From: Vitis vinifera
Lineage: Eukaryota > Streptophyta > Magnoliopsida > Vitales > Vitaceae
Direction of reading: 5' to 3'
Length of the DNA: 64,000 nt
NCBI RefSeq assembly: GCF_030704535.1
Contig: NC_081808.1
Span: 20,820,501 to 20,884,500 of the forward strand
Below the pieces are notes generated by a model. That model was not told the origin of the DNA and made no database searches. It worked only from the letters and a program-made list of their open reading frames with translations. The position numbers and the translations under genes were made by a program. Below are positions 1,891 to 63,850 of this stretch, in pieces. The first letter of the stretch is position 1; each line of letters begins with the position of its first letter.

Positions 1891-3497
1891 CGTCTTTTCT
1901 CTCTCTCAAGTTTGGGAATTTCTCAAAAAGAGCGGTTTTTTAAAGACATATTTAAAAGGGCTGTATGATTAACAAAAGGGTATCGGACCTACATCTTTTT
2001 TTTTTCCCTAAAGGTACCATCGAAAATTCAATTTTAAAAATCTAATCCTCATTTTTTTTCTTTTTTTCCTTTTTCTTTTCTTATTCTAACAAAAAAAAAT
2101 TAAAGATATTTATTTAAATTCACCGGTAAGAGGATTTAACCTTTTTTATATATTTTTTAAAAATAATTAATTTTTGATATAAATATCTTAATGATTTCAA
2201 ACATTTACATATAGTTTTAATTTTTTTCTTTTTTAATCAATTAATTTTATATAAAATGAGGTAAATTTTCTTGTAGAGGTGTTCAATGGGTTGTGTCGGG
2301 CTGACATGGTTCGATATTGACTAGGTCATTACGGGCCAACATGTTGGGCTAGCATGGCCCACTTAAAAAGCATGTCAGATCGGGCGGCCCATGCAAGGAA
2401 CAAAGATGGCTCAGCACGACCCATAGGTCTGCGGGCTAATCATGTCGGGCCCGGCTGTGCCGACGGGCCTTGGCCCATGGGCCACCCACTTTGTTAAAAA
2501 TTTTAATTTAATTTTTAAATCATTTTTTCTTAAGTTTTTTTCATTATTAAATAAAATTTCTTTTTATTACTTTAAACACCTCTAATAATTATACTTGACA
2601 TTGGCCGTTGTTAAGAGGGGTACTATTGACATAAAAATTAAAAATAATTATTAATTTACCTTTTTATCCCTAAAATTAGTTATATAGATATTAAGAGGGA
2701 TATTATAGACATTTGACATGTAATAAAAAGTAAAAAGTGAATTTTAAAAGGGTCAAGTGAGCCGACATAGTGGGCACGGCGGGCCGTGCAGGCTGTTTCT
2801 TTAGGCCTAGCACGGCCTGCTCCTTTATCTCCGGGAGCCCATGGGCCGACGGCCCAATCTACAATGCAACCACACTTTAACACATTGGGCCTCTTTGATG
2901 TTTGTTTAACCGCCATAGAATATTTTAAGATTAAAAAAAACTGAAAATCTAAAATTTAAAAAATACGAATGAAAATATAATAGATAAGAATATCTTCTTC
3001 TACAATTTCTTATTTTAAAACTCACTTTGAATATCTCCAAATACTTAGAAAGCAAACATTGATTTCTTATTCTACGTTAATACAAAGACTTTATAAGAGA
3101 TATCTTTGTCAATCTAATTAAAAAATAAAAAATAAAAAATAAAAAATTGATATTTATTTAAAAAAAAGAAAAAGAAAAAGAAAACACCGAGTGTCTGCCA
3201 TTAATAGATTTAGACTTTTAGTTTGATGAAGGCGTTACTTTTCTTGGCATAATCCCATTTTGCTTAGGTTTGCCCTTTCTTTCTAATTCGATTCAACCCT
3301 ATTCTTTCGACGAATAAAGAGTAGAAAGACGGTAGATATTGAACAAGAATAGATTCCCAACGACATTTCCCAACAAATCTGATTGACATAAATCCTAAGA
3401 TAATCAATTGAACGATTCCTTATACATCAAAAGAATTTCTGATGAAGAAATACGCATCTGTAATTGGAGTTTGTTGAAGAAAGCAGTATTAAGAGGG
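1891..3497. other. Intergenic stretch, AT-rich with GC-rich TE blocks
   Basis: No gene supported. It should hold the glutaredoxin promoter near 1900-2000. The rest is AT-rich sequence interrupted by GC-rich blocks at about 2280-2480 and 2745-2900, described as a hAT-like element. Confidence 0.6.
2274..2900. mobile_element. hAT-like non-autonomous element remnant
   Basis: A 13-base end at 2274 (TAGAGGTGTTCAA) is matched in inverted orientation at 2572-2584 with one mismatch. It is followed by a GC-rich block with many GGGCC, GGCCC and CGGGC motifs. A second block of the same style lies at 2745-2900. GC-rich subterminal repeats around an AT-rich core are common in plant hAT MITEs. No convincing 8-bp target duplication is visible, so the boundaries, and whether this is one element or two, are uncertain. 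Confidence 0.42.
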
Positions 3498-3818
3498 TTA
3501 AGATTTGGGCTTGGATTCATTCCTGTAATATTCGTCGTAAGCTTCTAGCTCCTCGTAATACACGTCCCACACGCACCGGACGCATCCGCTGCCGCAACAA
3601 TCACCCGGCAACGGCTTCTCCGGCAGAGGCGGCGGCGGCGATTTCTCCGGTTGTTGCTCCCCTTTCTTGTTGCTATTCTCCATGGATTCCAGTGGTTGGT
3701 TCTTGGATAACTCGTCCGCCATTAGGTCTGGGATTCTGATACACGAGGCTTTCGGATCTCGAAAACGATGAGCGAAGAATCTCCGGGCAGAGATTAGCGA
3801 GAGGGGCAGATCTCTCAT
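3498..3818 (-). CDS. Oxidoreductase-like (OXLD1-type) small protein
   Basis: A 106-residue single-exon protein. Its C-terminal third carries the conserved signature of the oxidoreductase-like domain, CCGSGCVRCVWDVYYEEL, preceded by a proline-rich PPPPLPEKPLPG stretch. The biochemical role of this family is not established, and the name comes from similarity to the N-terminus of some oxidoreductases. I chose the Met at 3818 because residues 1-25 (MRDLPLSLISARRFF...) are rich in Arg and Ser and lack acids near the start, which suits a mitochondrial presequence. The open frame continues to a Met at 3989 with one at 3932 between, so a longer N-terminus is possible. Four cysteines in the motif could bind a metal (inference). 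It stands alone between the glutaredoxin and aldehyde dehydrogenase genes. Confidence 0.75.
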   Translation of the reverse strand: MRDLPLSLISARRFFAHRFRDPKASCIRIPDLMADELSKNQPLESMENSNKKGEQQPEKSPPPPLPEKPLPGDCCGSGCVRCVWDVYYEELEAYDEYYRNESKPKS

Positions 3819-3989
3819 GGACAATACGACATCGTTTCGGATATTCTGGAATTGTGGATTTGGTAGCGTGGAAATGTGGACTCCAGGGCGGCGACGAAGA
3901 AGTTGAGGATGATGAGGGAGGGGCGTTTCCATCCACCGTAGGCCCAATTCAATTGTGAAGTACACAAATGCCGTCAAATAATAAATCAC

Positions 3990-4611
3990 GCGTAATGTTC
4001 ACTACAGTTCTGGCTGTACAATTTGTAAAATTTCTCCTTTTTTATTTTTTACTTTAAATACACGTCAAGTAACCAAAATAGGGCTAAAATAAAACAATTG
4101 AAAGTATAAAAATTGTTATTTGATATTTGTAAAATAAAAGTTTATTTAAAAACTTAAAATATTTTTAATCTGTTTTTAATATTTTTATTTTTAATCATTT
4201 TAAGTATTTATATAATGATTTTTAGAAAAAAATCTCAAAAAAACAAATAAAACATATTTTTTTGAAACACCTTGTTTTAGTTTTTAAAAATAAAAAATAG
4301 AAAATAATCTATCGTACTTTTTGTTCTAGACAATAGATCATTCTTCAATACCTAAATAGATGCATAATTTCTAGAAACATGAAAAAAAAAGATAATTTCT
4401 AAATTTAAACAATCAGGAAAGACACCATAATTTATTGCAATTTCTAATTGGGCCCCAAAGGCCATAGAGAACATTTTTCAAATTTGTAACATAGTTAATA
4501 CTTATAAGCAATGCCATGATTTGGGGTATAAAAGTAGACAGTGAATACAGGAATACAACTGGAAGGCACTGGTATTTGATATTTGGGGCTAAAGCTTTCT
4601 CCATCTCACTC
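3990..4611. other. Intergenic, AT-rich
   Basis: AT-rich spacer between two minus-strand genes. The 4400-4610 part is probably the 3' untranslated region of the aldehyde dehydrogenase. No other feature seen. Confidence 0.55.
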
Positions 4612-44393: not shown

Positions 44394-44894
44394 TATAGAC
44401 CCCTTCAAAAACCAATGACTTTTCTTTTGTTTTGGGACCACTTGGGGAAAAGCTGGAAATCTCGTTTAGAGTGGGGGCCGACTTTGGGGATAAACGAGTA
44501 GCATGGGATGTGTGGGGGAGGATGTGACCATTGCCATGGCGGTGGTTGGAGCTTCAGAAGGTAATGGTTGAAGCAGTAGAGCTGGTGAAGGCCTAGTGGA
44601 GAAGAAAACCAACTAGGTGAAAAAGCAAAGGAGAAAAAGAAAAGAAGCGGGGAGCAGGGAAAAAACAGAGAGTGGGATTTCGGGAGCGAAAACGAATCAA
44701 GGGGGGAACGAGCTAAGCATAGGACAAGAAAACGGGCAACAACTAGGAAGGATATCTAGTTTGTCTTTTTTTTTTTTTTTTTTTGAGGAGCTCTCAAGTA
44801 AGCACTAGTGCGGTTTTTTTTTTTGGATACTTTGTTTTCTATGGGTGTTCCGGGTGCATAGTGTTGTGTGTATCACCAACCGAATTTATCCCCA

Positions 44895-45014
44895 CCTCTC
44901 ATCTTTCCAACCTTAACCTCCTCAACACCATGTGTCCGGTGGGTCTCCAAGTGAGATCTCACGACAACAGGCGGGTGGTGGCCTGCAGTAGCGCATGCTC
45001 TGCTTTCAACTCTT
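44895..45014 (+). pseudogene. Thaumatin-like protein fragment
   Basis: About 40 codons matching the middle of plant thaumatin-like (PR-5) proteins: LNTMCPVGLQVRSHD, then RRVVACSSACSAFNS, keeping the CP-VACKSAC-AFN cysteine pattern. Similarity stops abruptly on both sides (the left flank is unrelated, the right continues YPLAHTQ). The signal peptide and most of the sixteen cysteines are absent, so this is a captured fragment. Confidence 0.65.
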
Positions 45015-45347
45015 ACCCACTTGCACACACCCAACTCATAGAGTCATTGCTTCAATTTTTGTTGTTTTATAAGTTGGTTGGCTCAAGCTGCCAAAGAGAA
45101 AGGTGCAAAAGTTCATAGTGCATGGTTTAAATGGCCAACCCTCAAACCACTCCAGTATATAAATCATTTTCATAGCCTAAACGACTGCCTCTCGACTTTC
45201 GGTTTTCACCTCTGTTATTCAACTTCAGTTTCACGGGTGGCAATTGATTCTTTTTTATGTTTTTCCTATTTTAATTCAAAACGGTAAGCAAATTTAGATT
45301 TGGGGAGACCCATTTTTTCTTCGCCTTTTGTTTTTTCTCACTTGCCC

Positions 45348-45449
45348 ATGAAAAACAAACTGATGGACTACAAGCCTTTAACGGAGGTGGAGTTGAAAGC
45401 GCTATGTGAGCAGGTGAGGGCGGTTCTCTTGAAGGAGTGGAATTTGCAA
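45348..45449 (+). pseudogene. PP2A catalytic subunit N-terminal fragment
   Basis: From MKNKLMDYKPLTEVELKALC through EQVRAVLLKEWNLQP it follows the N-terminus of plant protein phosphatase 2A catalytic subunits (normally LMECKPL..., LCEQA, EEWNVQPV). It breaks off just before the CPVTVCGDIHGQF metal-binding motif. At the break the sequence continues directly into the enoyl-CoA reductase fragment in another frame. Confidence 0.7.
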
Positions 45450-45633
45450 CCACTGTTATTATTAATCCTTTGACTGCACTAAGAATGCTTGAAAACTTTG
45501 CCAATCTAAGTCCAAGTGATGCTATTGTGCAAAGTGGGGTGCATCATTCAGCTCACACGAATTTGTGGTATCCACAACATTAATATAATAAGAGATAAGG
45601 TTGGATCAAATGAAGTAAAAGAAAAAAAAAAGT
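45440..45633 (+). pseudogene. Mitochondrial trans-2-enoyl-CoA reductase (MECR) fragment
   Basis: Reads EFATTVIINPLTALRMLENF, SPSDAIVQ, then after a small deletion of the NGATSIVGQ-type nucleotide-binding loop and a frame change VGCIIQLTRICGIHNINIIR and SNEVKEK. This matches the central Rossmann part of plant MECR (fatty-acid synthesis type II). Missing the glycine-rich loop and both ends, it cannot be functional. It shares GGAATTTGCAACC with the end of the PP2A piece. Confidence 0.7.
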
Positions 45634-45719
45634 CAACAAATTATAATTTGATTGTACACAACATTTTATAAAATAATATAAAATCTCGGCATACACCATT
45701 AGCATTTGATGGGCCTTTT

Positions 45720-46607
45720 TGTTTTCTTTAAATGCCCTCGTCTTTTTCTTAATTCCCAATTCACGTTTTCAAATGTTAATTTTCAAAGCTTAGGTTTTTT
45801 TTAATCTAATTTCCAAAATCTCAATTCTCAAATAATTTTTTAAAACTCCAATTTTTTTTCAAATAATTTTCTAAACTCCAATTTCTTTTAAATTTAATTT
45901 CTAAGACTCTAATTCCTTAATTTAATTTTCAAAACTCCAATTCTCAAATAATTTTCAAAACTCCAATTTCTTTCAAATTTAATTTCCAAAATTCCAATTT
46001 TCACATTTATATATTTAATCATTATTATTATTATCTTTTTTTATTATTTATTTTTAAAATACCATCTTTAAGTTTGTTATTATTATTATTATTATTTTAT
46101 TCATTTATTTTAAAAATTCCACCCTTAAATAATTTTTTCAAATTTTCAATTTCCTAATTTAATTTCCAATTTCAAAAATTCTAATATTCACATTTTCATC
46201 TTACCCATTTTTTTCTCACATTTTCCTCCGCTCAAACATCTTCCTATTCTCTCTCATACATATATAGCCATCATACCTATTTATCTCATCTTTTTCCTCC
46301 ACTCAAACACCTTTTCATTCTCTCTCATAAGTATGCACACACCAAACCCATTCTTTATTTATTTATTTTTTTCTTTCTCTCACTATTTCCTCCACTTAAA
46401 TATCTTCCAACTCTCTTTCGTGCCCGTGGAACCACATTTCCATTTTATTTTTTCGTATTTTAACATCAAAGTTTAATGTTCCAAAATTTCAATTCTCAAT
46501 TAATTTCCAAAATTTCAATTCTTAACTTTAATTTTTAAAACTCCAATTTTCAATTAATTTCCAAAATTCCAATTTTCGTATTTATTTATTTAACCATTAT
46601 TATTTTC

Positions 46608-46673
<66 letters not shown>

Positions 46674-46990
46674 TATTATTTATTATTAAAATACCATCTT
46701 TAAGTAATTCTTCAAAATTCCGATTTCCAAATTTAATTTCCAAAATTTCAATTTTCGCATTTATTTATTTACTCATTATTATTTTCGTTATTATTATTAT
46801 TATTTTATTTATTTATTTTAAAATTTTCATCTTTAAACAATTCTTCAAATTTCTGATTTCCAAATTTGGTTCTCAATTTCTGAAATTCCAATTTTCCAAT
46901 TGTCGAACTTAATTTCCAATTTCCAAAATTCCAATTCTTAAATTTAATTCGCAAGACTCCAATTTTCAAATGAACTTCAAAAATCCAGTT
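45720..46990. repeat. Degenerate CAATTTCCAAAA-type repeats with (ATT)n
   Basis: Dozens of variants of AATTTCCAAAATTCCAATTT on one strand, with (ATT)n runs, the longest at about 46606-46683, and shorter ones near 46083 and 46790. The minus-strand frame at 46805-46999 translates the repeat and is not a gene. Confidence 0.8.
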
Positions 46991-47121
46991 TTCCCTCAAA
47001 TAATTTTAATTACACTCTGGTTTTCGAATAACCTTCTATTTCTTTTTATTTTACATACGTAAGAATGAGTTTTTCATAACTCCGAAATAATGAAATTTGT
47101 GAGACCAATTCATACAAGATA

Positions 47122-47231
47122 AATTGGGTTTTGGTGGGGGCCCAACATCAAAGAAGTTTTACTTAGAATAAAAATGAATTGGGTTTTGGTGGGGGCCCAA
47201 CATCAAAGAAGTTTTACTTAGAATAAAAATG
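47122..47231. repeat. Perfect 55-bp direct duplication
   Basis: The unit starting AATTGGGTTTTGGTGGGGGC at 47122 repeats at 47177 with no visible difference. Its GGTGGGGGCCC part is also present in the nested element at about 59084. Confidence 0.85.
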
Positions 47232-47777
47232 AACTTGAGTGAAATGTCATGTGTGCCATTAGTGATTACATATTCTGTTTGGTGATGCATGTGATATATT
47301 TTATGCTCATTCTTGTGCACTAAACCCATTTCATGATGGCGCATTACTCGCTCGCTACCAAGGTACGCACTCACTCTCACTTTGACCATTCTCCATGCTT
47401 TGTTTTGGCTCCCAATGTATGATCACTTTTTGGTGAAACACGTTTAATCAATCAATTGTCACACGCGCTTCATTTTATTAGTAGAGACCCGTTTTTAGGG
47501 ACTTAGAGGGGTGTTACGGTCTTTACCGTACCTTCCCAATGAGTAACCTGACCCCCGAGCCTCGATTTGATTTTTCATAGACCCCTTTTTCCGAATAAGG
47601 AGTCACACTTAAGGTTTTCTTTCTTATTTTGTTTACCCTTTTTTTAAAAATAAAACAAAAATAAGTGGCGACTCCAAGTCATTTTCTAAACAATAGATCA
47701 ATTTTTCATAAATAAATAAAAAGAGAGTCTCGCCATCGAGCGGGAACGCATCGAGCCAAAATGCGAGGTCCACAAAA

Positions 47778-47795: not shown

Positions 47796-49217
47796 TTATT
47801 TAGAGAGTCAAGCTTGAACTTAAGATAAGGCAAATGTGGCGTTTGATGGGTCGATCAATGGGTACCTATCTCTTGATTGCACATTGAGAGCTCTTAATAT
47901 CATTGGATGCGTGCTTGGTTATTGTATTCATTTGGGACCTTGACGTGTTGATTGTGTTGATTAATTATCTTGATTGAAGATTCTAATATAGCAATGTTTC
48001 TGTGCTTCATTGCTATATTCATTTGAGACATTGACATGTTAATTGTATTGATTGATTATCTTACCTGTTTTAGCATAGTAATTTTGATTTTTCCATGATT
48101 GTTCTACTCACTTCACATGCATAGACTCACTGTTCTATATATTTTGACTTGATGTGTTGATTCTCTGGCTTGTATATTATCTAAATCATCTTTGAGCATG
48201 TTGTATTTGTCATTATTCATCTTGATTGTCATAGCTCGTATGTGGACATGAGTGGTATATTCGTACTTTGCTTGATTGTATGTTACATGATTGCCTTCTC
48301 CGTGTGATTGCATGCCACTTGTCCATGTGGGCCGCACATCTATCCCCTTACCTCCAATTCTCTAGTTTCGGTCATTTCTTTCATCTTAGCTCTCACTTTT
48401 GCAAGTGTGAGGCCTTGTGTGTACTTGTTTCTTTGACCGAGCTAGAGGTTAGGAGTAGGGTCTAGCGACGGGCTATATCGATGTTTGAGAGCATTCTAGA
48501 GGTGACCAACACATTGATGTCGATTGGAGTCCGATCATTGAAGACCTGTATATCCCGGAACTAGGTTTCATAGATATTTGTGCGACCAGTATGTTTCCTC
48601 TTTCTGTTTTAGCTTCATAGGGTTTTCGGATGCACCCAAATCGCTCACTACGCACTTTAGTTGACTATTGAGAGTCTTAAGAGGTTTCACCATAGGAAAC
48701 CCCCTAGGATGTTGAGGTAGTGCATATGTGGAGGTGATGACCACCTTGCATGGAAGCGCCCTGTCTCTTCGGAGACATGCAGAGGGTTGTGTATCGCCGG
48801 AGGGTATGATCGCTTCTACTATGGATCTTTTAAAGTCCACCCTTATTCTTTTAAAGCCAACTTAACCTTATAGATTGGGTCATAGATCATTCAATTAGGA
48901 TTCTCTCCCTACACATGGGTGCATCTGAGGGCCTTTAGAGCCTCTTTGGTCACAGTTTAGATTCAGTATTCCCTTTTTTAGTCTCTAGTTGAGAGTGCAC
49001 CGAGATCAGTACGAGTTTGAGTTATGGTCGGACAGTCCGTCTACACTTTGATGTCTTGCTTGTTTCAGCTCAGATTAGCATTTCTTCTGTGTTTTCCCTA
49101 TGGCGTGACCTTATTTCGTTTCTCATGTTCCAGGATCGACGTTTTGTTCTCAGTCTGGATTTACCATCTTGATTCAGAGTATAGGGGAAATTAGTCTGAT
49201 TTTCGGAAATATCAGAC
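47796..49217 (+). other. Untranslated leader of the retroelement
   Basis: About 1.4 kb between the primer-binding site and the gag start, with no long open frame in the plus orientation. Long leaders are usual in this branch. Confidence 0.5.
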
Positions 49218-50954
49218 ATGGACCAGCAGGTTGTCACGATTGATCAGTTCACAGCCGCCATGACTTCTATTCAAGAGGCCTTGGCCAATCTCAGGCAGGA
49301 GATAGGCAGTCAGCAGAGTAGACTGCCCACAATTCAGGATAAGACACCTCATGACTCGTTGCCACCTTCACCACTACCACCTGTTCCGATAGTGCCTCAA
49401 GCCTCACCTTATCTGCTGCATGGTCATTCTGAGGTTACCCCACATGCAGTAGTTCAGACCACAGTCATTGATGATGCTCACACACGTATGGACCGTATTG
49501 AGCAACATATGAGACAATTGAGAGTATCTAATGGTTCAGCTATTTGGGATGATCTTGAAGGTATGCTAGTGGCTAGTTTACCGGCCAAGTTTAGAATGTC
49601 TAACATTGAGAGATACACGAGCATTGATTGTCCTCGCATTCACCTCTGACTCTACAACACAGTGATGAGGGCCCGCGGATTAGACAAGTCACATATGATC
49701 ACCTTATTCCCATTATCTCTGAGTGAAGCGACCTAGCATTGGTTCGCGTCTTTGGAGTCCTTGTGACACAAGACATGGGATGACTTGGCCCAAGAGATTT
49801 TGTGATAGTTTTCATTTAATACCATGTAGATGTATCGAGGAGAGAGTTTGAGGCTCTGACATAGAGATCGGACGAGTCCGTTTCTTCATTCATCTCCCGC
49901 TGGCGCGGGAAGATAGCCGAGATTATTGATAGGCCATAAGAGAGAGATCAAATACAGATGGTTTTGAGGAGTCTACAGCCCAGGATTGCTAGACATGTGG
50001 TCGGGGTATCCTTCACAGACTTTTGAATCTCTGGTTTTGGCTCTATATGATGTTGATGACAGTATTTCTAGAAGTCTATGGACAAATTCTTCCCCTGTTG
50101 ATGTTAAGGGGAATAAACCATCCGGAGGACAGCAATCGGTTGATATGAGTGCTATCAGTTCTATCAGTCAGAGGCCTCCCAAGCGTCATTAGCCAGTTCC
50201 ACAACTTCATGGGACTCACCCTTCTTGTGCACCTCATCAGTACAGGCCATAGACACCTCATCGGTACAGGCCACAGGCACCTCATCAGACTTATGATCAG
50301 GTTCACACACCTCCGACATTAGCACTACCTCACTATGTTGTCCAGGGCACAGAGAAACCTCCTGTTTCATACTCTGCTACAAGGCAGCTATGCTATGCAG
50401 CTCAGTTTGCCGCGAGACCTACATCATCTTATCCCAAGCCCATAGCTCAGTAGACCTCTACTCATTTTGCTTTGAGAACGCAGAGACAGTTTTCACAGTT
50501 AGGCATGTTGTTGAGCCAGGCTTTTCAGAAGCTTACAGAGGCGGGATTGTTGACGACTCTCACTCCCAGACCACCACCTCAGCCTGTTTCGCCTCTGTTC
50601 AAGATGGATCTACACTATGCATACTATTAGGAGCCTGGACATGAGACCGATCGTTGTATTGTTCTGAGACATGCCATCCAAGATCTGATTGATTAGGGTT
50701 TGGTTCACTTGGGTCAATCGAGTGTAACCACAAACCCATTACCATCCCACATCACACACGCGATTCCTTCTTCGGCTGATGACATACATTTCCTGGACTT
50801 TGCTGAGTTTGACAATCACATCCACATGTTGAGTTGGGATGAGTTAGCTCTAGAGCCCATGGTATCAGATGGGATTTATGAGATGGGCAGAGTGACTTTG
50901 AGTCCTTGGGTGCCTACTCCATTCAGACTGATTCCTAAAGCGGCATTAGTGTAG
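49218..50954 (+). pseudogene. gag of Tat/Ogre element, many stops
   Basis: Begins MDQQVVTIDQFTAAMTSIQE with a coiled-coil-like Gln-rich start. It continues through the capsid region (CPRIHL, HWFASLESL, LYDVDDSISRSLWT) to a degenerate zinc-knuckle segment (PGHETDRC) and HIHMLSWDELALEP near 50830. Internal stops at about 49647, 49730, 49773, 50190 and elsewhere replace Arg, Gln or Trp codons. Some parts need a frame change. Confidence 0.7.
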
Positions 50955-51229
50955 ACGGCGACAGTCGAGCCATTGACTTTCCACATTACAGTGCTCAGGC
51001 TCCATTTGTCTTGATTACGGATGTTGAGGAGGTTCAAACTCCATATGTTGATGATGTTCACATTCCCGATATACAGTATGTTATTCATGGGGACAAGGTA
51101 TTGCGATAACCGTCTCCTATAGCTGCTAGACCCTTAGAGAGGACATTCGCTCCGGAGGAGATCAGGAGATAGGATGACGAGATTATAAGGCAATTATAGA
51201 ACACACATGCTCGCATTTCTATTTGGAGT

Positions 51230-52768
51230 TTGATGGAATCTTCCAGCACTCACCGAGAGGCATTGATTAGAGCCCAGAGTCAGATCAGAGTCGAGACTAC
51301 CACCACCCCAGAGGGACTAATTCACATGGTGACGGCTGGTAGAGCCACCTGTATAACATTCTCGGATGATGACTTGCCGCCTGATGGTCCAGACCATATA
51401 CGCCTACTGTATATCTCAGTCGGTTGTTCAGGCTGTCGAGTCTCATCCTTCCTTCTGGACAATGACTCGGCCCTGAACGTCTGCCCCCTAGCCACCGCCA
51501 TTATCCTTGGCTATGCGCCCTTTGACTTTGGTCCCTCCACTCAGACAGTTTGAGCATACGATAGCACTCGAAGGGAGGTCATGGGCACTCTGGAGATTAA
51601 GCTATTGATAGGTCCGACCACATCTGTTACTTTGTTCCAAGTTTTGAGGATTCCTACATCATTTAACCTGCTTTTGGGTTGACGTTGGATCCATAGAGCT
51701 GGGGCCATTCCTTCTTTCCTTCATCAGAAGGTGAAGTTCATTCACGATGACTAGGTCGTCATAGTGCAGTTTGCGGGAGATATGTTCATTTCTGTTGAGC
51801 CAGTGCTTCAAATTAGTCATAATGATGACGACTTATTTCTGACTGGATTCACATTCGACGAGGTGCAGACCCTAGAGATGAAGGATTTTTGCCGAAACTT
51901 CGTGGCCATGTCGCTTGATCAGCACGACAACACGGTGGTACTCGATATGATGAGGAGTATGTCTTATTTACCCGGTATGGGATTTGAGCGACGTCAACAC
52001 GGGCCCAATGAGTTCATGACTATCCCATATCACAATGTACTGTTCAAACTTGGGTTCATCTCTACTGAAGTCGATTATAGATATATGGCGCGATTGCGCA
52101 AGGAGCGGGTGAGGGTCCGATTGACTCACACATCGTTCGACTATCCTATTCGCCCATACACCATGAGTTTGGTGGACTACTTCAGGAGGGCGTCAGGGCC
52201 ACAGATGCCTTTAGATGGGATCATTGGGGGGCTCAACACTATTCAAGAGGTCGAGCTTTAGCGTCTTGTTTACCAGCTGCAATTGAGTGACGAAGCTTTT
52301 GACACTTTGGCATCTACATTGGCCGCCCCATCATCTCCCAATTGTATGAGCCTTATGATGCTTTATTTCCTTGATGAGATCAATGAGCATGGGATATTTG
52401 CCAAGATCGGAGACATAGTTGATGGAGTTATTCCACATGACGAGTACATTGACGAGATGCTCGTGATGAGTATGAGCCAAATCAAAGAGATAGTTCGACC
52501 TGAGTTTGCTATGCCATTCAACCTCTTTGGGTTGTCTGCCATCGAGATTGCTGAGGAGATCCAGACCGTTCTTACTCCGAAGTTTACAAAGGACGATATA
52601 GTTGATGTTTTGTTTAACGACCCTGTTGGCTCAGTTGAGGGAGAACCGACTTTGTGGACTCACTTCTTTCATTTGATGTTTTATCGGGACTTGTCTCCCG
52701 TTCTGACGATGTTCATGACTTTTATTTATGGATTTGAGCATATTCGAGTATCTGTCTATCTCTTATGA
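51230..52768 (+). pseudogene. Protease and linker region of pol, broken
   Basis: HIRLLYISVGCSGCRVSSFL leads to the protease site, here LLDNDSALNVCPLATA (the usual third residue Gly appears as Asp). A Tat-type linker follows with GMGFERRQHGPNEF, ending near 52768. Stops at 51552, 51681, 51753 and 52259 interrupt it. A frameshift at about 52745 leads into the RT frame. Confidence 0.7.
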
Positions 52769-54221
52769 TATCACTTTATTTGCACACTTCTCACCCACAT
52801 CACAGATATTTGATATAGACGATGAGATTGCATAGCATGATTCAAATGATGACTCATCGTTTACTTCTGATTCGGACCCCATTGATCAGAGAGTTTCACC
52901 TGCTATAAAGGACACAGAGGTTGTTGATTTCGGCATAGTAGATCAACCTAAGGAGTTGAGGATTAGATAGGATTTATCTACAGATGAGAGAAACAACCTC
53001 ATCTAATTGCTCAGATCGTATTTGGATGTTTTCACATGGTCTTATGAGCACATGCCAAGCCTTGATCCATCTATTATCCAGCATCGTTTGCCACTTCTGC
53101 CCCATGCCAAACTGGTTAAGCAGAAGTTGAGACGATTGCACTCTCGTTGGAGCTTGCAGGTAAAAGAGGAGATTCAGAAGCAGCTCAATATAGGATTCTT
53201 ATCCATGGTCGAGTATCCCGAGTGGCTAGCCAATGTTGTCTCTATTCCTAAAAAGGACGACAATGTGAGAGTTTGTGTTGATTTTCGAGATCTCAACAAG
53301 GCTAGTTCTAAGGATGATTTTCCTTTCCCACACATCGACATGTTAGTTGACAGTACGAAAGGTCATTCGATGTCGTCCTTTATGAACGGATTTTCTGGGT
53401 ACAGTTAGATTCTGATGGCTCCAGAGGACATGGAGAAGACGTCCTTCATTATTGAGTGGGGTACTTACTGCTACAAAGTGATGTTGTTTGGGTTAAAGAA
53501 TGCAAGAGCTACCTATCAAAGAGCAACGACCACCTTTTTCCATGACATGATGCACCGGGATGTCGAGGTTTATGTAGACGACATGATAGTGAAATCCGGA
53601 TATAGAACTGATCACCTAGCAGCTTTGGAGAGATTCTTTAAGAGGATTAGACAGTTCAGATTGAGACTGAATCCCAAGAAGTGCACTTTTGGAGTGACTT
53701 CTAGGAAGCTACTAGGGTACATGGTCAGTGAGAGAGGCATAGAGGCAGATCCGGATAAAATCAAAGTCATCCTTAACATGTTTGCGCCGAGGACCGAGAG
53801 AGAAATCAGAGGCTTCTTGGGTAGACTTCAGTACATCAGCAGATTCATTGCTAGATTGGCGGATATTTGTGAGCCCATTTTTCGACTCTTGAGGAAGAGT
53901 CAACCTACCATTTGGGATTATTAGTGTTAGCGTGCATTTGAGAGGATCGGAGAGTACTTGTTGTCACCTCCAGTCTTAGTGCCTCCTATACCAGGTCATC
54001 CTTTATTCCTATACCTGTCGGTTTCAAACGTAGCTTTGGGTTGCATGTTGGCTCAACTCGATGATTCGGGCAAGGAGCGAGCCATTTATTATTTGAGCAA
54101 GAGGATGTTAGATTATGAGATGAGATATGTCATGATTGAGCGCTACTGCTTGGCATTGGTTTGGGCTACTTGGAGACTGAGACATTACATGACTGAGTAT
54201 TCAGTGCACTTAATATCCCGT
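52769..54221 (+). pseudogene. Reverse transcriptase and first half of RNase H
   Basis: The RT frame runs from YDITLFAHFSP through SLDPSIIQHRLPLLP, VVSIPKKDDNVRVCVDFRDL, FGLKNARATYQR and the catalytic YVDDMIVKS at 53571-53597 to GFLGRLQYISRFI. RNase H begins near FLYLSVSNVALGCMLAQ and is cut at HLISR by the nested element. Stops at about 52840, 52970, 53004, 53408, 53922 and 53928 are mostly TAG in place of CAG. Confidence 0.85.
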
Positions 54222-55474
54222 TGTAGACCCCCATTTTAGGGGCTTATTTTCCTCACTTTCCTGCAGATCTTTTAGCCAGGTGTCGCAGTTGTGGGTAGCC
54301 ATGTGTTGATTCTCGTTTGGTTGCTATGGCATTAGGTAATGGAATCAAGGAGCAAACAAGAGGATGACACGTGGAAATGTGGTTCTTTTGGCATTGCAGG
54401 TCGTTAGGGGGAGCGTATGAGAGAGAGAAGGATATTCTGGTTGAGACTAGGAGTGACCTGTAGGGGCAGAGAGTAGGGTTGCTTTTTGAGGTTGGTTAGG
54501 AGATATTTTTAGAAGAGGGCAAATGTGGTAGAGGGAAGAGGTATTCGTTATCAGAAAAATAAACCTTTTAGCTAAGAAAAACTGCAGAGGAAGGGTTTTT
54601 TGGGGCTGCCATTTTTCAGATATATTTTGAGGGTGTGAGTTTTAGAGAGAGTGGGGGGGTTTCTTTATAGAGTTTTTTTTAGAGGGCGCTCCTTTAAGGC
54701 TTGGGAGGAAAAAACTGCAGAGGAGGAGATATTTTGGGAGCAGGAGTTTTCTTTCTTGAGGATGAAGTTTTTGATGAGAGCAGGAGAGAGTAGGCTATGA
54801 ACTTCAGTGGGTGGCGAGAAAGAAGTGAGCAGACTGGTTTTCTGAGGGGTTTCTTTGGAGCTTAGATAGTTTTCGTGAGAGAGAGAGAGGAACTAGGGTT
54901 CTTGCTTGAGGTAGAAGAACATCAACTGAGGGGAAGTTGTGACGAACATAGTAAGGTGGAAAGCTAAGCATGGAAAAATAATGGTGATTTGATGAGTTTT
55001 GATCGATCTTGTCGAAGAGGATCATTCACAGGTATGCTTCTCTTCTCTTTCTCTGTTCATTCTTGGGTGATGTTTGTGTGTTGAGGGTAAACATATCCAT
55101 ATATCCCTTTTTAATGGTTCTTGCTTAAGGTCATTTCGTCCTTGTTTTTCTCCATAATATATTTGCAACCATCCTCTAGTTTTGTTTGATAATCTTTTGA
55201 TTTCACCCACCTTCATCTAAGCCCATCAATTGATGCATGACATGAGGCTAGTATGGGTTCCTTTTGTTTCAATTATCCGTACTCTATTTTGCCTTTTTTC
55301 CCTTGCTCTTGGTATTCATCCATGGTATGCTTTGGATGCGGTACTTGAGTCAAGAAATGCCTTTTTGAAGCACTTCAGATCATCAATCTTCCAAAGGAGT
55401 TGGATAAAGATACCACTCACCATTATGGGTCGAAGCGCTTTTAAATTGCACAGACTGCCGGTGCCCAGGACAGG

Positions 55475-55626
55475 ACCAAGTATTTGATGGTGGTAGTCTC
55501 AGGTGTGGTGGATCAGCAGAGGAATAAGATAGTTGATGTTGTTGTGACTGTGATTGCTAGGTTTCTCGGTGCCGCTCTGTTTGTTCCCATCCTGCAAGTC
55601 AACGTCATGTATGGAGTGATGCAGTG
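55475..55626 (+). pseudogene. O-fucosyltransferase fragment
   Basis: TKYLMVVVSGVVDQQRNKIV followed by ARFLGAALFVPILQVNVMYG corresponds to the conserved donor-fold entry of plant GT106-type O-fucosyltransferases (normally YLMVVVSGGMNQQRNQIVDA and LQVNVIWGDE). The first Gly-Gly-Asn is altered to Gly-Val-Val-Asp, a short insertion lies before ARFLG, and a frameshift follows the last motif. Upstream sequence from about 55340 may belong to the same gene. Confidence 0.65.
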
Positions 55627-56417
55627 AACGCAATATTGAACACATTGAAGTCTAGGCATCCCATGCTACCTATACTAACCCATGCTTTCCATTACCTATT
55701 GTACCGTTCTTTCATGACCCATTGATTCTCTATCTTCTCATATGCATGGAGTTCCATGCGCATGGTCATCCCTACCTTCCTATCCATTGTATACTTCATG
55801 TCCATCCATCATATTCTTTTCTAGCAGCCCATGCATATCATCACCTTTCTCTTTCTAAACTTATCCATACCCATTTTCTTATTCCCATTCACGCAACCAC
55901 CCTCACAGGTTCCTACAAGATTATTCTCCTATACCCTGTCGTCTACCTGATCTTCTTACCACCTTTTATATCCTTTATTCGTGTGGTGCCAATGAGTTCA
56001 TTGTGAGTCCAGTGGTGAGTAGGTGTGGTGTTCTTGGGCGAAATGAGTGGCACACGAGTTTTGTTTGAAGGTAGAATATTAGAACGGATTTGTGGTGAGT
56101 GGACTGCTGGGTGCTTATGTGGAATTGGGGTGATATCGGTTCAGCTGAAGATTGGTTCCGAGATGTTTTACATCGCATTTTTTGATGGTTCAGATGATTA
56201 TAGTTTGTGGGTTTGCTTGGAAACGGAGATGCAAAGGGTGACTTAAGGCTTGCCAATGACAGTGTCAAGTTCCATCGGCTGCATAATGTTCGCAGGGGTT
56301 TGCAAGAAGATTCAGTAGTGTTCATGAATAAAAGCACCATGTTGAAGCACTTCTTCAAACTCCATGTTAAAGCAAGGAGGAGGCGGCCTCTAGAGATGCC
56401 TTACAAGCTAAAAGGTA

Positions 56418-57071
56418 ATGTCATTTTGGAATACATCCTATATTGGCGTTCCTTTCACCAAGAGAGGGTGCACCAACCACTTATCTGCTGAGCCATCAGT
56501 GGCATTTATAATAAATAATCAAGATAAGCATGTGGATAAGGAAGAGGTTACCATGCCATGCCCCACCTGCACTCCACCAGAAGGAGGACATGGGGTTGTT
56601 TCCTCATGCCTGAACTGTCTCCTTGCGGGTGATATTCTGTACCGTTTTGAGTGTTCAATCAACCCCACTCTCTTTCTTGCAAAAGCACGTGGTGGAACTT
56701 GCACTCTCGCAGTCTCAGATCCAAATGAAATTGTGATCCATCGAGTAACCTACCTGCTTAACAATGGCTTTGGGTGTTATAATGTCTTCAAGAACAATTG
56801 TGAAGACTTCGCCATCTATTGTAAGACTGGCCTCCTTGTTATTGATCAAGGAACTACAGGACGGAGTGGATAAGTTGTATCTATAATAGGGGGGCCACTC
56901 GCAGCTGTTCTATCAACACCTTTGCGACTTGTGACCACCAATATATATGGGAAGACCGCAACTGCAGTTGGGGTTTACTGTGCTAGCCGGTTTGCTGCTG
57001 ATATTGGGATGAGGAAAGATATAGCAAATGTGAAACTAGAGAACTCTGAAGGCTGGTCCCGTGAGCTATAA
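56418..57071 (+). pseudogene. NC-domain (LRAT-like) protein fragment, intron-free
   Basis: A continuous frame of about 217 codons with one stop. It matches plant NC-domain proteins: GVVSSCLNCLLAGDILYRFE, LFLAKARGGTCTLA, FGCYNVFKNNCEDFAIYCKT with the conserved NCEDFA cysteine, then VVSIIGGPLAAVLSTPLRLV and SRFAADIGMRKDI. A TAA at 56871-56873 probably replaces Gln. The N-terminal His-containing half is reduced to a short piece (YIGVPFTKRG). Absence of introns over this length suggests an mRNA-derived copy. Confidence 0.75.
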
Positions 57072-57744
57072 ATCCCACTGGCAGCACCTTATTCGTTAAC
57101 AAGCCGTCATCACACCGATTCATGACCTTTACAGCGTCTTAGCAAACATGCAGAATTTCCAATGCTCTTCCTTGATAAAACTGAATACGTTGTACCAGCA
57201 AGTCACGTCACAAAATGCTCATTAGAATGTCAAGATGGAAGTCTCTATTGTTTGACTAGCAGTTGGAAAATTTGATTTTGGTACTCCAGCTATGACGGCT
57301 GAGGTTAAGATGAATGCAAATTAAAAGGGTTATACATGGTGTCTTCCGAACGTGGGTATTTTGTAAGTCCGTCCAGCAATTTGACATGAGTAGGAAGAGA
57401 AGAATTCGTTGATAAAACGTTACCATGAAATGACCGAAGTCCACTTTGCAAGAAGTGATAATTGATAAGAAAGAAATAAAGCAAGCAAAGCTGTCCTCGA
57501 ACGACGCCGGCGAAACCCCTTCGCCATCACCGAAACGCCAAGCAACCATTGAAGCTCCTTCACTTTCCCTCTCCTCTTATGGCCAGCGGGAAACTTACCG
57601 ATGCACCTACTCACAGCTGGTGGCCGCTGCAAAACCAAGATGTTGCGTTTCCTTCTCGTATTTCTGCAGCGATATCATCACCCCTCATCCATCTTGTGTT
57701 TGTGCTTACTAGAATGAGAACAATCCGAAGCAGAGGCCCAGAAG

Positions 57745-58330
57745 TTGATGGAGACTGCTTTTATCTCGGAAAGTGGCCGACCATTATAGTGCTAGGACCA
57801 ATCAAACCTTGGAAGAACGAGAAGCAAGTCCAATCATTCATTTGAGGAAACTAAACAACTGGATTAAGAGTGTCCTCATTCAGCTTTATGCTCTCCGAGG
57901 GGATGCTGTTCTTGATTTTGCTCGTGGCAAGGGTGGTGATCTAATCAAATAGGACAAGGCAAAGATTGGATACTATGTTGGCACCAATATTGCTGAAGGC
58001 TTGATAGAAGACTGTTGTACACGCTATAATGGTGACATAGACCATCATCAAAGGCGCAAAAAGTTCACATTTCCGGCTCGCCTTATATGTGGAGATTATT
58101 TTGAGGTTCGCTTGGATAGAGTTTTGGAAGATGATGCTCCTTTTGATATTTTCAGTTGCCAGCTTGCTATGCATTACTCATGGTCTACTGAGGCACCGGC
58201 ACGACGTGCTTTGGGCCAATGTATTCAGCATTACTTCGTCCAGAAGGCATCTTCATTGGAATGCTGCCAGATGCCAATGTTATCATCAAAAAGCTTAACA
58301 AAGGTTCATCAACTATGTTCTGGAGTTTCT
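57745..58330 (+). pseudogene. mRNA cap guanine-N7 methyltransferase fragment, intron-free
   Basis: Matches plant cap methyltransferase 1: KVADHYSARTNQTLEEREAS, LRKLNNWIKSVLIQLYALRG, then the SAM-binding motif as LDFARGKGGDLIK (usually LDLACGKGGDLIKWDK), KIGYYVGTNIAEG, RRKKFTFPARLICGD, DDAPFDIFSCQLAMHYSWST. A TAG at about 57949 replaces the Trp after DLIK. Two single-base insertions near 58214-58226 shift the frame before LLRPEGIFIGMLPDANVIIK. No introns are seen. The C-terminal half is absent. Confidence 0.8.
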
Positions 58331-59060
58331 TCTAGCATCATTAAACTGGCATGACAACAATTTGAGGGAAATGTTATAGTTCCCATGATGACTTGGTATT
58401 GATCCAGACATAACATATCATGATGAGGTCATATGGATCTTGCTGCTTCAGTACCCCGTTGACTGCATCAGCGGCATATATCAAGGTAAAAACCAGTTTA
58501 ATAAGTTGGAGGAATTAATATGGTGTTGTTTGAATTTTCAAAAAGCTATAAAACATCCAGAATCCTTTACATCCAAAATCCTTTACCTGCTTCCGAACTC
58601 CTTATGTCTGGAATGAGATATTATTAAAGCCTTCCAGTGTTAAGATGATTACAGTGGCACCGAACACGCCACAGCTCTGGACTTTGGACTCTGGACCCTG
58701 GGCCCACTCTACAGGTTTCTTGTTTGAATGGCCACCTATATGCATGGCTACCTTTTAGGGCACGTGGTATCTATTGCTTCATCATTTTTAGCTCAAACCC
58801 CCTTTTGTAAATAATCTTTAAATTCTATTTTTTTTTCTTTTTGATAATTCCATTTTCCAATTTTCAAATATTTTCAAATAACCTTTCGGTTTTTAGTCTT
58901 TTTAAATAATTTCAACTCCATATTTACCTTCATCAAAAATTCCATTTTTTTTAATAAAATTTGCCGTCATTTTCGAATTTTCTTTGATTTTTTTTTAAAT
59001 GTTTTAAAATAAGCAATGATTAAATTCTGTAATTCTAATTAATGAAATTTACAAAATTAA
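58331..59060. other. Unassigned part of nested element
   Basis: No coding similarity recognised. The 58790-59060 segment is rich in TTCCATTTTCCAATTTTC-like runs, comparable to the degenerate repeats of the host LTR. Confidence 0.45.
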
Positions 59061-59642
59061 TTCATGCTAAAATAAACGGGCTTTGGTGGGGGCCCCAACA
59101 TAAGTGATTTTATAATTGATTGATTTAATTGCCCTGCATGATTGATTTTATTCTGCTCTATGACATGCTTGAAATTATTCTTTAATTGTGCACTAACCTC
59201 ATTTCTTAATAGCATATTGTGGCTCGTCGCCCAGGTACGCATCTATTCTCATTCTGGTCTTTCTATATGCAAGTTCTGATTCTCATATGTGCATGATTGA
59301 CTTGTGTATCCATTATTTTTCTTATTGATCGCCACGTCAGCTTCCTTTTATTAGTAGAGACCCGACTTTAGGGACTTAGAGGGGTGCTACGGTCTTATCC
59401 ATACCTTCCTGATAAGTAACCTAACCCCCGAACCCAATCCGGTTTTTCACAGACCACCTTTTCCAAAATAAGGAGTCTCACTTAGGGTTTTTCTTTCTTA
59501 TTTTGTTTACACTTTAAAAATAAAATAAAAATAAGTGGCGACTCCAAGTCATTTTCATAATCAATAAATCATTTTTCAAATAAAAATCAAGCTCGCCATC
59601 AAGTAGGAAACGCATGAGCCGAAATACGGGGTCCACACCCGT

Positions 59643-60101
59643 CTTGACCCCTTGAGATATTTGTTTGACAGACCTGCTTTGGTCAAACGACTCATGACAT
59701 GGTTGGTACTTCTGACCGAGTTTGACATTCATTATGTCACTCAGAAGTCTATTGGAGGGAGCATTGTTGTAGATCACTTAGCCTTATTGCCGATTTCTGA
59801 TGGTAGAGTTATTGATGATGATTTCCCAAGTGAGGATGTTGTTGTTGTGACTAGTCTGTCAGGTTGGCGCATGTACTTTGATGGTGCGGCCAACCATTCT
59901 GGATACGGGATTGATGTCTTGTTGATATCCCCTCATGGCAACCACATTCCTAGATCTATTTGTTTGGCATTCTCAGATCGACATCCTGCCATGAACAATA
60001 TTGTTGAGTATAAGACTTGCATCTTGGGATTGGAGATAGCTCTTGAGCTTGGGATCAGACAGATGGAGGTGTTTGGTGACTCCAATCTAGTATTGAGATA
60101 G
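59643..60101 (+). pseudogene. RNase H remainder and second RNase H of host pol
   Basis: Resumes the host frame with LDPLRYLFDRPALVKRLMTW, FDIHYVTQKSIGGSIVVDHL, then a second RNase H starting WRMYFDGAANHSGYGIDVLL with NNIVEYKTCILGLEIALELG and VFGDSNLVLR. The D-E-D pattern is readable. A Gln-to-TAG stop at about 60099 ends the frame. Confidence 0.8.
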
Positions 60102-61607
60102 ATTTAGGGCGAGTAGAAGACTAGAGATGTGAAACTTAGACCTTAGCATGCATACTTAGAGCTACCGGTTTGGAGATTCAATGATTTGAGATACATACAT
60201 CTGCTTAGAGCGTAGAACCAGTTCGTTGATGCCTTAGCTACTCTAGCTTCCATGATTGATATTCTCACTGATACCGTTGTTCGTCCTTTATTGATTGAGT
60301 CGATATCAGTTCCTGCCTATTGTTGTTTGATTGATGAGACAGAGTTCGATGATGGCTTACTTTGGTACCATGACATATACCAGTTTTTGAGACTAGGTGC
60401 ATATCCTGAGGCCGCCACGGCCAAGGATAAGAGAGCATTGAGACAGTTGGTCGCCTTATTCGTGATTTGTGGTGAGACATTGTACAAACGATCAACTGAT
60501 GGGATGTTGTTATTATGCTTAGATCGCACTTCTATCGATTGAGTGATGAGAGAGGTTCATGCGGGAGTCTGCGGACCATATATGGGAGGGCATATGTTGG
60601 CCCATAAGATCATGAGGACTGGTTATTTCTAGTTGACCATGAAGACAGATTGTTGCCAGTTTGTTTAGAGATGCTTAGAGTGTTAGATACACGAGAACCT
60701 CATTCACGTGCTGCATTCGGAGTTACATGCGTTGACTTCACCATGGTCATTTTCAGTATGGGGTATCGACATCATTGGGAAGATTTCGTTGAAGTCTTCC
60801 AGTGGTCATGAGTTCATCTTGGTTGCCTTCGATTTTTTCACCAAGTAGGTGGAGGCCACCTCATATGCGAGATTGACATCGGCTGGAGTTGCTAGTTTCA
60901 TTAAATCACACATTATCTGTCGCTATGGTGTCCCTCATGAGTTAATCTCAGATAAAGGTATACATTTTAGAGTAGAGGTTGACACTTTAGTGCAGAAATA
61001 TGGTATCCAGCATCATAAGTCGTCTGCGTACAGGTCGTAGACGAACGGGGCAGTAGAGGGCTCGAATAAGAATATTAAGAGGATCTTACGAAGGATAGTC
61101 GAGACTTTTCAGGATTGGTCAGAGAAGCTCTCTTTCGCATTATGGGCTTATCGGACTTCTTTTCGCACCTTTACAAGAGTCACACCCTACTTTTTGGTGT
61201 ATGGTATGGAGACAGTGCTACTAGTTGAGATTGAGATGGTTTCATTGAGGGCAACATTAGAGCAGCAGATTCCAGAGGCAGGTTGGGCTCAGGCTCGATT
61301 AGACCAGCTCAATCTCCTAGATGAGAGGAGGTTGAGGGCAGCAGACCATGTTCGTGCATACCAGAGGAAGATGACCTGTGCTTTTAAAAAGCGGGTCAAG
61401 TCTAGACCGCTACAAAGAGCTGACTTGGTTCTGAAGGTCATCAGGGGATTGATCAGAGATCCGAGAGAGAAGTTCAGACCCAATTGGAGCGGACCTTACT
61501 TCATTAGGGAGCTGACCCTAGAGGGCGCTGCATGGTTGATGGATCTAGATAGAAACCGATTCTTGGAGCCGACCAATGGGGATCAGCTAAAAAGGTACTA
61601 TGTTTGA
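60102..61607 (+). pseudogene. Integrase region of host pol, many stops
   Basis: Zinc-binding HHCC region from VMREVHAGVCG to QFV-RCLEC near 60545-60690. Catalytic core with WGIDIIGKI (first Asp), SDKGIHF (second Asp) and NGAVEGSNKN (Glu). The end, PNWSGPYFIRELTLEGAAWL to GDQLKRYYV, stops at 61607. Stops at about 60540, 60630, 60667, 60687, 60845 and 61037 replace Arg, Trp or Gln. Confidence 0.8.
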
Positions 61608-62879
61608 GACCATGGTCATAGGATAGGTGGTCATCATTTCAGTTAGTCATATATTCTTTCACCCTTTTGATATATAGACCATTGCTAGCCCATTGAGCCT
61701 CGCATGTGCATTATAGCATTTCTTTCTTATCATCTTGCTCACATTTTTGCACCGGGATGGGGGCCCTTTAGTGTATGCATGCATTGTTTGGGAGTCTCAT
61801 GAGTCTTGGACCTACAAGTGCATATTTCTCTCATTATTTTTCCTACCATCACTCTACTGCATTCCATCGTATCTCATTGGTTGTGTTCTTCATATCTTTT
61901 TCTTTATTCTATTTACTACTTGTTTTTCTTTATATTATCTCCACCTGGAGTGGTGATTCTCCTCAATTGATTACATGGAGGATAGTCGCATCATTTTCAC
62001 TATCTATCTATCGGACACTAATTCAGAGATCCTTAGTTTGAGAAGGTCATCTCGTCAGAGAAAGTTTTTGTTACATTGGCACTTGACAGTGTGTTTATCC
62101 ACTATGGATATCATCTTTGGGGTTCATTTGTTTATGTTCAGGGTTTGTGCATTCGTATATATGTTAAAAAAAATCAGAAAAAAATGAATGAAATGAAAAG
62201 AAAATAAAAATAAGCACATGTGTGTATGTGCATAGTATTTTCCATCATTGAGCGTGTATATTGATATTTGAGGGTCATTTTATCGAGTATGTTTGTTGTT
62301 GAGAGTTCGTATGTGAGCTTTCTGAGATCTTCTTTTCTTTGTATTCACTTTGTCATATTTCTTTGAGAGTGAGATGAATGACTTTCTCTTAGGGGCTCTG
62401 GGTAATTGTCATTTCCATCATTACATTCATTGTTGATGTGACTTCACTCCATGTTTGATTTGAGTTGATCATCACTTTTCTTCGTATATTCTTTGTTTCA
62501 TTATCGTCCCCGTCATTGTTTGTGATTCATCTCGTTCGCCTCACCTCTTTGTTCTTTTCTTACACTGACCTATTCCAGGTTTGATATCTCTCTTGCATCA
62601 TTCTTACGTATCTCATTATCAGTTTGATTTGCTTCATCGTCTCATTATTAATATTATATTCACATTGTGCACCCTTAGGTCCATGGATCACGAGTTTTTC
62701 TATACATGTTGTATTTTATACATAAGGGCATGAGTTTTTTTTTTATCTTTGAGTATTTGGTCCTAGTTTCCCTTCATTTCTATTACCTCATCACCTTAGC
62801 CTACATTACGTTCCATGTCTTAAGATCACCCTGAGGCCATGAGATCAAATGTTGTCTTCGACAGCCCCTACTTGGACAG
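61608..62879 (+). other. 3' untranslated part of the retroelement
   Basis: T-rich non-coding sequence after integrase. Short open frames at 61735-62187 have no family features. Confidence 0.5.
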
Positions 62880-63850
62880 GTATTTGAGATTTGGTTGATA
62901 TTTAGATATCATCATGCTTCTTCTTCTGCGAGAAACCTCTTTGATGTTTGGACTCGATTCAGTTGTGGATATGGATGACCGGGATCATGCATTTGATGAT
63001 GGATGATTTGAGATTGTTTGATTTTCCGATCTACCATACATTTGATGTCATATTGGGGCATATTTCCTTTTCGGTTGAGATTTATAGATCTTCATGGAGT
63101 CACATGATTCTCATTACTCACGAGATGCATGTTGAGTTGATAGTCTATTGTTATCTTATCATGACCTCCCCAGTGTAGTCTCTCTTCGGTCATTCAGTTA
63201 AGCTTACACTTTTCGACATTTAGATATCATCATGTTTCTTCTTCCGGGAGACGTCTCCTTGATGTTTGGGTTTGATTCAACCATGGACGTGGATAACAGA
63301 GATCACACATTTGATGATGGATGATCTAATATTGTCCGATTTTCAATTTATTCCACATCTGATTCCATACTGGGGCATATTTCCATTTCAATTGAGATTT
63401 ACAAATCTTCATGGAGTCGCATGATCATCCCTACCTACGAGATACACGTCGAGATGATGACATGTTTGTTATCTTATCGTGATCCCCCAGTAGAGCCTCT
63501 CTAGAGCCATCTAGTCATACCCATATTTTTCGGTATTTGGTTGTCATCATGTTTCTCCTTCTGGGGTACGCCTTTTTTATTTGTGGGTTCGATTCAGATA
63601 TGGACGTGGATGACCAGGATTGCATATTCGATGATGGATGATTTGATATCATTTGGTTTTCCGACCTATCTAACATTTGATATCATACTGGGGCATATTT
63701 CTGTTTTGGTTGAGATCTGTAGATCTTCATTGATTTGCATGATCGTCCCCAGTCACAAGATACACATCGGACTGATGGTTTGCTTTCATTTTGTCTTGAT
63801 TCTCTAGTGGAGTCTTCCTTGAGTCATTCAGTTAGGCTCGTGTTTTCTGA
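62880..63850. repeat. Tandem array, unit about 317 bp, three copies
   Basis: A start phrase TTTAGATATCATCATG (degraded in copy 3) is found at 62901, 63219 and 63536, giving periods of 318 and 317. A further trace is near 63850. Each unit contains GATGATGGATGAT and CATACTGGGGCATATTTCC. Copies differ by about one base in eight, judged by eye. The array lies in the 3' non-coding part of the Tat/Ogre element, and the window ends before its LTR. Confidence 0.8.

Follow-up and report, generated by a model that had tools for sequence, protein, structure and literature searches.

We analysed a 64-kb stretch of the Vitis vinifera genome, hereafter the window (C4:20820501-20884500, where C and a number denote a contig of the 495.6-Mb assembly with its 21 contigs; positions without a contig are those of the window), in which 5416 bp of inserted DNA occupy positions 54222-59637. 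This insertion, like the features described within and around it, reads on the forward strand. It begins with TGTAGA, finishes with TCCACA and is flanked by an exact 5-bp target duplication, CCCGT, at 54217-54221 and 59638-59642. Inspection of its TG...CA ends, the short duplication, the absence of an internal region and comparison with relatives mark it as a solo long terminal repeat (LTR). Its start (54222-54536) is conserved with relatives (91% identity to C19:23352534), and so is an end of about 650 bp (58989-59637), which is 82-87% identical to other listed LTR ends. A broken Ty3/gypsy element (49200-61604) is interrupted by the insertion within its RNase H region. This element retains broken pol pieces, and its LTRs lie at 44394-47774 (left, start approximate) and, outside the window, at about C4:20886963-20890072 (right). 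Over 312 bp, the right end of the insertion is 83% identical to the end of that left LTR (47467-47774). An initial annotation, made from the letters of the window, had described the unit, its ends, its duplication and its kinship with the interrupted element; the first three are exact on re-inspection, and the kinship is borne out by the alignment. In the interrupted element, Pfam recognizes RVT_3, an RNase H of archaeal type. In the family this domain comes second, behind another RNase H, an arrangement that is a marker of the Tat lineage. The insertion is probably a solo LTR of a large, Tat-like Ty3/gypsy family.

By sequence comparison, the window copy carries pieces of at least four host genes, all in the LTR sense, the direction that had been annotated for three pieces and that the Pfam frames confirm. 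The leftmost (55353-55481) is 88% identical to C2:20408775 and is a piece of complementary DNA (cDNA) that we take, from the translation of its parent, to be ABCE1/RLI. It overlaps by 15 bases with an O-fucosyltransferase (O-FucT) piece (55467-55621; 85% over 155 bp to the likely parent at C13:28824818), which recurs in locus L033 on C1 and whose own Pfam match is weak (E = 9e-4, under the curated cut-off). The O-FucT piece of the initial annotation is therefore present, and what had been read as a single gene there is two. Further along, a piece of a multicopy sequence (56435-56569; about 90% to C16:25690344 and others) is joined at TGCCATG to an LRAT/NC-domain piece (56554-57045; Pfam E = 8e-12). 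The latter is 94% identical to one exon of a gene at C8:8546045; it is as free of introns as had been claimed, which gives no evidence of splicing, since it falls within that single exon. After a segment common to several other loci (57480-57723; 84-91%), a piece of mRNA cap guanine-N7 methyltransferase cDNA (57767-58306; Pfam E = 5e-21 and 4e-23) is joined at AGCTTA to a segment, perhaps a repeat, that is shared with C6:5352919 and, up to 58602, with C2:18150532 (58292-58648). Another match, at C10:2146256-2146535, was considered as two exons and dropped when no GT-AG junction was found.

The ends of this LTR are common property of a family, and its middle is not. The first 501 bp match 43 places in the assembly, and among 20 fetched stretches of 10 kb most share a start of about 300 bp and an end of about 650 bp. 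The spacing of the two gives LTR lengths of about 1.8-7.6 kb, the longest LTR holding about 3.7 kb of extra sequence, and the middle of the window copy has no match in any of the 20 stretches at E<=1e-6. A genome search with the whole insertion gave 4114 first-look candidates, a number that should not be read as a tally of LTRs. Of the 41 matches listed, 38 are 3' ends, and no other copy with the cargo combination of the window copy was found among the 40 candidates that were scored. Apart from the C16 pairs described below, 12 LTRs were inspected for duplications: 10 are flanked by perfect 5-bp copies, and L026 has four of the five bases. In L031, ATGTC stands at either side. The LTR of L027 is followed by AAATGGCGACTC, as expected for a 5' LTR. 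On C5, LTR starts match at 1875664, 1987674, 2090549, 2198436 and 2306311, a spacing of about 103-112 kb that may reflect a large tandem unit or an effect of assembly.

In two elements whose paired LTRs were compared, gene pieces lie in both LTRs. An element on C16 has paired LTRs around pol: two units of 5.61 and 5.55 kb, whose starts are 18.9 kb apart, are 92-95% identical in aligned blocks (Kimura two-parameter distance, K2P, 0.066), and between them lie stretches that resemble the pol pieces of the window element, with reverse transcriptase (RT), RNase H and RVT_3 confirmed by Pfam. Calpain, PP2C, LIN and glutaredoxin peptides are encoded in both units and are 81-91% identical between them. 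In a C17 element, the first 2.5 kb are common to the two LTRs (K2P 0.043), and both contain MBTPS1 (100%) and S-adenosylmethionine (SAM) decarboxylase (92%). The cargo-bearing C16 element has a segmental duplicate (C16:20041749-20066187 and 20227094-20251512, about 185 kb apart, LTRs 97-98% identical). C2 and C19 each have a further pair of matches to the C16 cargo, spaced by 17.9 and 23.6 kb respectively, and matches to a block of the window copy are paired 13.8 kb apart on C16; these spacings suggest cargo in both LTRs of three more pairs. The idea that this family holds captured host cDNA within the LTR, rather than between short LTRs, thus stands for the C16 and C17 elements. We also looked for a separate later insertion: no ends of its own were seen around the pieces, and the fragments join at short shared sequences. 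That every copy carries its cargo twice, as had also been proposed, holds for the C16 and C17 elements and the C16 segmental duplicate and is suggested for the three further pairs. The proposal that a solo LTR disperses the cargo did not hold up: because a solo LTR cannot move by itself, it preserves the cargo rather than dispersing it.

The assignment of the remaining element parts is less direct. A tblastn search with the window pieces places RT, RNase H and an integrase-like piece in this order in L011, and Pfam supports RT and RNase H alone. The pieces that we presume to be gag, protease and integrase have no Pfam match. In the C16 element, 2.5 kb separate the presumed integrase from the LTR; their three sense frames gave no match. 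Downstream of the integrase-like piece of the interrupted element, three tandem units of about 317 bp, about 65-77% alike, lie at 62850-63799.

To survey the cargo, 21 LTR interiors were scanned with Pfam in their sense frames, stop codons being read as X (the window copy was represented by eight open stretches and one frame); L017, L019 and L021 were fetched and stood outside the scan because their LTR ends were not delimited. At E<=1e-3, 25 distinct host-gene pieces were found in 13 interiors, and all of them are in the LTR sense. The C16 LTRs contribute JAB (best match COP9 subunit 5), glutaredoxin, PP2C, LIN and calpain, the last with E = 0.0054 in one LTR and 7e-8 in the other. Other loci carry thioredoxin (L009), actin (L023), prolyl oligopeptidase (L016), CG-1, LSM and MLLE (L020), a phosphoesterase (L022), CobW and GPHR (L025), SAM decarboxylase, MBTPS1 and IBR (L027), or NUP160 and EF-Tu domain 3 (L031). 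Five loci picked by the rank of their 3' ends (L046-L050) yielded Nckap1 and H+-pyrophosphatase, which by eye belong to L046, and redoxin, which by eye belongs to L050. The L046 pieces are likely inside the LTR, though the fetched stretch begins after the LTR start; the scanned frames of L047, L048 and L050 took in some pre-LTR sequence. Weaker matches (0.001-0.01) include E1 FCCH, Tub, CK2 beta, pterin-binding, thaumatin, STPPase and neurobeachin. The interiors of L018 and L026 gave no Pfam host-piece match, and the left LTR of the interrupted element has no cargo at E<=1e-3 in the same scan, its two LTRs showing weak matches only (thaumatin 0.0049, STPPase 0.0042).

The opposite strand served as control, for 20 of the 21 interiors (all but the LTR of the interrupted element). 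Thirteen interiors, that of the window copy among them, yielded no family at E<=0.01 in 39 antisense frames. A further 21 frames of seven interiors gave Peptidase_C48 (7e-5), which is of transposon type, and one model at 0.006, which is taken as chance. Neither Peptidase_C48 nor a SWIM match in the sense frames was counted as cargo; both are transposon-type domains, which by eye map to L049 and perhaps beyond the limits of its LTR. At this locus (C7:13481700-13486684), SWIM-type and Ulp1-type coding pieces lie on opposite strands upstream of the LTR end and look, by eye, like a MULE-type remnant. In L047, open frames of up to 245 codons run over a short internal repeat (SGCLSSGICPP-like) in three frames at positions 3401-4135 in LTR orientation.

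The pieces bear the mark of spliced messengers. Of the seven parents aligned, four contain introns within the captured stretch. The LTR copies lack 10 of 10 of these introns, and for every one a GT-AG solution can be placed no more than a few bases from where the alignment breaks; these LTR pieces are therefore cDNA. Five of the introns are those of the cap methyltransferase, six exons of which (C19:5044353-5046361, 92-97% identity) are contiguous in the window LTR, as had been recognized for this piece. Two more are missing from LIN (parent on C11; one LIN junction has two solutions), two from PP2C (parent on C18) and one from calpain (parent on C6). For the NC, ABCE1 and O-FucT pieces, the alignment to the parent is one unbroken block, which tells nothing about introns. 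At the six junctions that we read, pieces abut directly, no poly(A) run lies between them, and about 3-15 bases are shared: 15 between ABCE1 and O-FucT (where ABCE1 shows one mismatch and one gap), TGCCATG and AGCTTA at the two junctions of the window copy given above, CACC between calpain and PP2C, TTCAA between calpain and the piece upstream of it, and a weak match of about 3 nt between PP2C and LIN. Intron loss, a single sense and shared bases fit template switching by reverse transcriptase onto packaged, spliced host mRNAs.

Other routes could bring host sequence into an LTR, and the same data bear on them. If processed pseudogenes made by the machinery of long interspersed nuclear elements (LINEs) had inserted into an LTR and been carried along as the element multiplied, the pieces would likewise be intron-free cDNA. 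The uniform strand of all 25 pieces disfavours such an origin, as do the six direct joins free of poly(A); the signs of LINE-type pseudogenes are not seen, the orientation being one and the same, with piece borders read for a subset of pieces. We consider this origin very improbable. Capture at the DNA level in the manner of Pack-MULEs or Helitrons is a common process in plants; in maize, Helitrons account for 1194 captures and other DNA transposons for 462 (PMC2774510). However, Pack-MULEs contain both exons and introns (PMC4717578), and the loss of 10 out of 10 introns together with the single orientation refutes this route for the four genes with mapped introns and leaves it scarcely any weight.

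The short shared ends of the family could also mean that the pieces were captured between short LTRs, so that each apparent LTR is a whole small element. Yet the entire 5.6-kb C16 unit occurs twice, at the spacing given above, with a primer-binding-like AAATGGCGACTC after the first unit and RT and RNase H between the two. This refutes small elements for C16 and, over the first 2.5 kb of the LTR, for C17, and we accord them next to no credence. A more serious question is whether an ancestor acquired the cargo in a single event, with nothing but decay and reshuffling afterwards and without recurrent capture. Sharing of cargo does occur. The C1 locus L033 has 1.1 kb in common with the window copy at 92% identity, ABCE1 and O-FucT included, with a different LTR start and different sequence after the shared block (its LTR end lies outside the stretch seen); C11 and C6 hold a shortened form of the same block, and calpain-PP2C has matches elsewhere. 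Against a single gain, most scanned interiors carry different genes, and the copies are 85-97% identical to their parents, a range from which the captures seem to differ in age. We therefore regard a single gain as unlikely, if less so than the other alternatives.

The explanation that we favour, with considerable confidence, is that the window insertion is a solo LTR from a Tat-like family of Ty3/gypsy elements in which template switching has turned the interior of the LTR into a patchwork of short stretches of spliced host mRNA. Host mRNAs would be packaged together with the RNA of the element. Probably during minus-strand DNA synthesis in the LTR region, reverse transcriptase would jump at microhomologies from the element RNA to one or more host mRNAs and then return, and normal strand transfer would copy the enlarged LTR to both ends. 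The cargo would then be inherited, trimmed and swapped between subfamilies by similar jumping, and later recombination between LTRs would have left the solo LTR in the window. An intron of the LTR leader may enclose the cargo and so make it tolerable, removing it from the spliced, translated RNA while the unspliced genomic RNA keeps it.

Candidate signals for such an intron are found in many LTRs. In the window copy, a putative splice donor, CACAG|GTATG (55027-55036, GT at 55032), sits at a switch from purine-rich to T-rich sequence, a putative branch point (ACTAAC) and acceptor (AATAG) at 59192-59212 close the cargo region, and a putative second donor, CCCAG|GTACGC, follows at 59235-59240. 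A purine-rich stretch followed by an AG|GTATG, GTGAG or GTAAG site and then T-rich sequence is present in 14 of 17 LTRs. A pattern search finds ACTAAY...AG near the 3' end in 12 of the 17, a thirteenth ending in AA and L033, one of four misses, lacking its 3' end. After the acceptor comes a short stretch and then, usually, CAG|GTACGC or a similar sequence. In LTRs with both signals, the counted cargo domains fall, by coordinate arithmetic, between donor and acceptor. An unguided test took the strongest drop in purine content of each LTR: a donor lay no more than 25 nt away in 8 of 18 LTRs, where random positions would give 1.5 and the opposite switch gave 1. We see about an even chance that the LTR holds an intron serving as a cargo bay, bounded by the recurring donor (CAG|GTATG, GTGAG or GTAAG) and by branch point and acceptor (ACTAAY...GATAG|CG). 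Foreign cDNA could then accumulate without disturbing the spliced, translated RNA, the unspliced genomic RNA would pass it on, and each LTR would record spliced mRNAs that were in its particle.

Several observations weigh against this picture or parts of it. The unguided test associated a donor with the composition switch in just those 8 of 18 LTRs. Four C16 LTRs lack a 5-bp duplication, their sites being at AT repeats or facing the element interior. The cargo of paired LTRs is not fully the same: blocks of about 510 and 440 bp distinguish the two C16 units, JAB is shortened to 19 of 41 residues in the partner LTR, and the C17 LTR L028 is without CK2 beta and most of IBR. The scan showed 8 of the 21 interiors to be free of host pieces at E<=1e-3, and the O-FucT, glutaredoxin, actin and IBR matches are under the curated Pfam cut-off (cut-offs were not shown in the scan of L046-L050). 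The shared bases at the six junctions, for three of which both donors are known, are raw counts. Finally, loci on C11, C6, C7, C17 and C9 were rejected as empty sites for the O-FucT block, two of the five (C11 and C6) having been fetched: both are 264-bp deletions between GCTCT repeats in the ABCE1/O-FucT block and not pre-capture sites, since fucosyltransferase-like sequence continues past the junction and both sides share GCTCT.

In the literature searched, which was consulted in part and with repeat databases outside its scope, we found no family with multi-gene cDNA chains inside its LTRs and no description of a cargo-bearing intron inside an LTR, Tat/Ogre included. A parallel may be drawn to Bs1 of maize, whose cargo sits between its LTRs, whereas that of the window family sits inside the LTR and recurs across the family. 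The family resembles the Tat/Ogre lineage in its two RNase H domains and its large elements, and Ogre has a functional intron (PMC12786077), a likeness to the one proposed here. Capture of genes by LTR elements is itself on record (PMC2774510, PMC2773423, PMC3726574, PMC4717578, PMC7264820, PMC13317346, PMC12786077). Like the window copy, Bs1 holds exon-only fragments from different host genes, and genes transduced by LTR retrotransposons are usually in the gag-pol sense (PMC4717578, PMC7264820). In contrast, among 425 maize elements with gene fragments, none had fragments of more than one nuclear gene (PMC2774510). Terminal-repeat retrotransposons in miniature (TRIMs) such as soybean GmaRetroS15 carry exons without introns from up to three genes per element, but these 30 elements in seven subfamilies are 1172-1449 bp long and have the gene match in the internal region (PMC4717578); the window family has LTRs of 1.8-7.6 kb and also occurs as elements with RT and RNase H. 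In BARE-2 and long Veju, abnormal template switching brought foreign sequence into the LTR or the element, respectively, yet its source was another retrotransposon or DNA of unknown origin and not a chain of host mRNAs (PMC13317346). Provisionally, then, multi-gene chains inside the LTR as the habit of a family appear to be new, and gene capture by LTR elements is not.

Gene capture by LTR elements has usually been described as fragments in single elements; here, a family would recurrently place chains of spliced host mRNA pieces in its LTR. Because the pieces sit inside the LTR, a full element holds its cargo twice, and recombination between LTRs leaves the cargo in place. Rates of template switching, rules of junction formation and preferences in packaging thereby become measurable from genome sequence alone. 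Such LTRs are a ready source of chimeric transcripts, might also supply small RNAs that target host genes, and can mislead gene annotation. If the LTR intron is real, these LTRs would archive past transcriptomes in heritable form and give rise to sense RNA that resembles many host genes.

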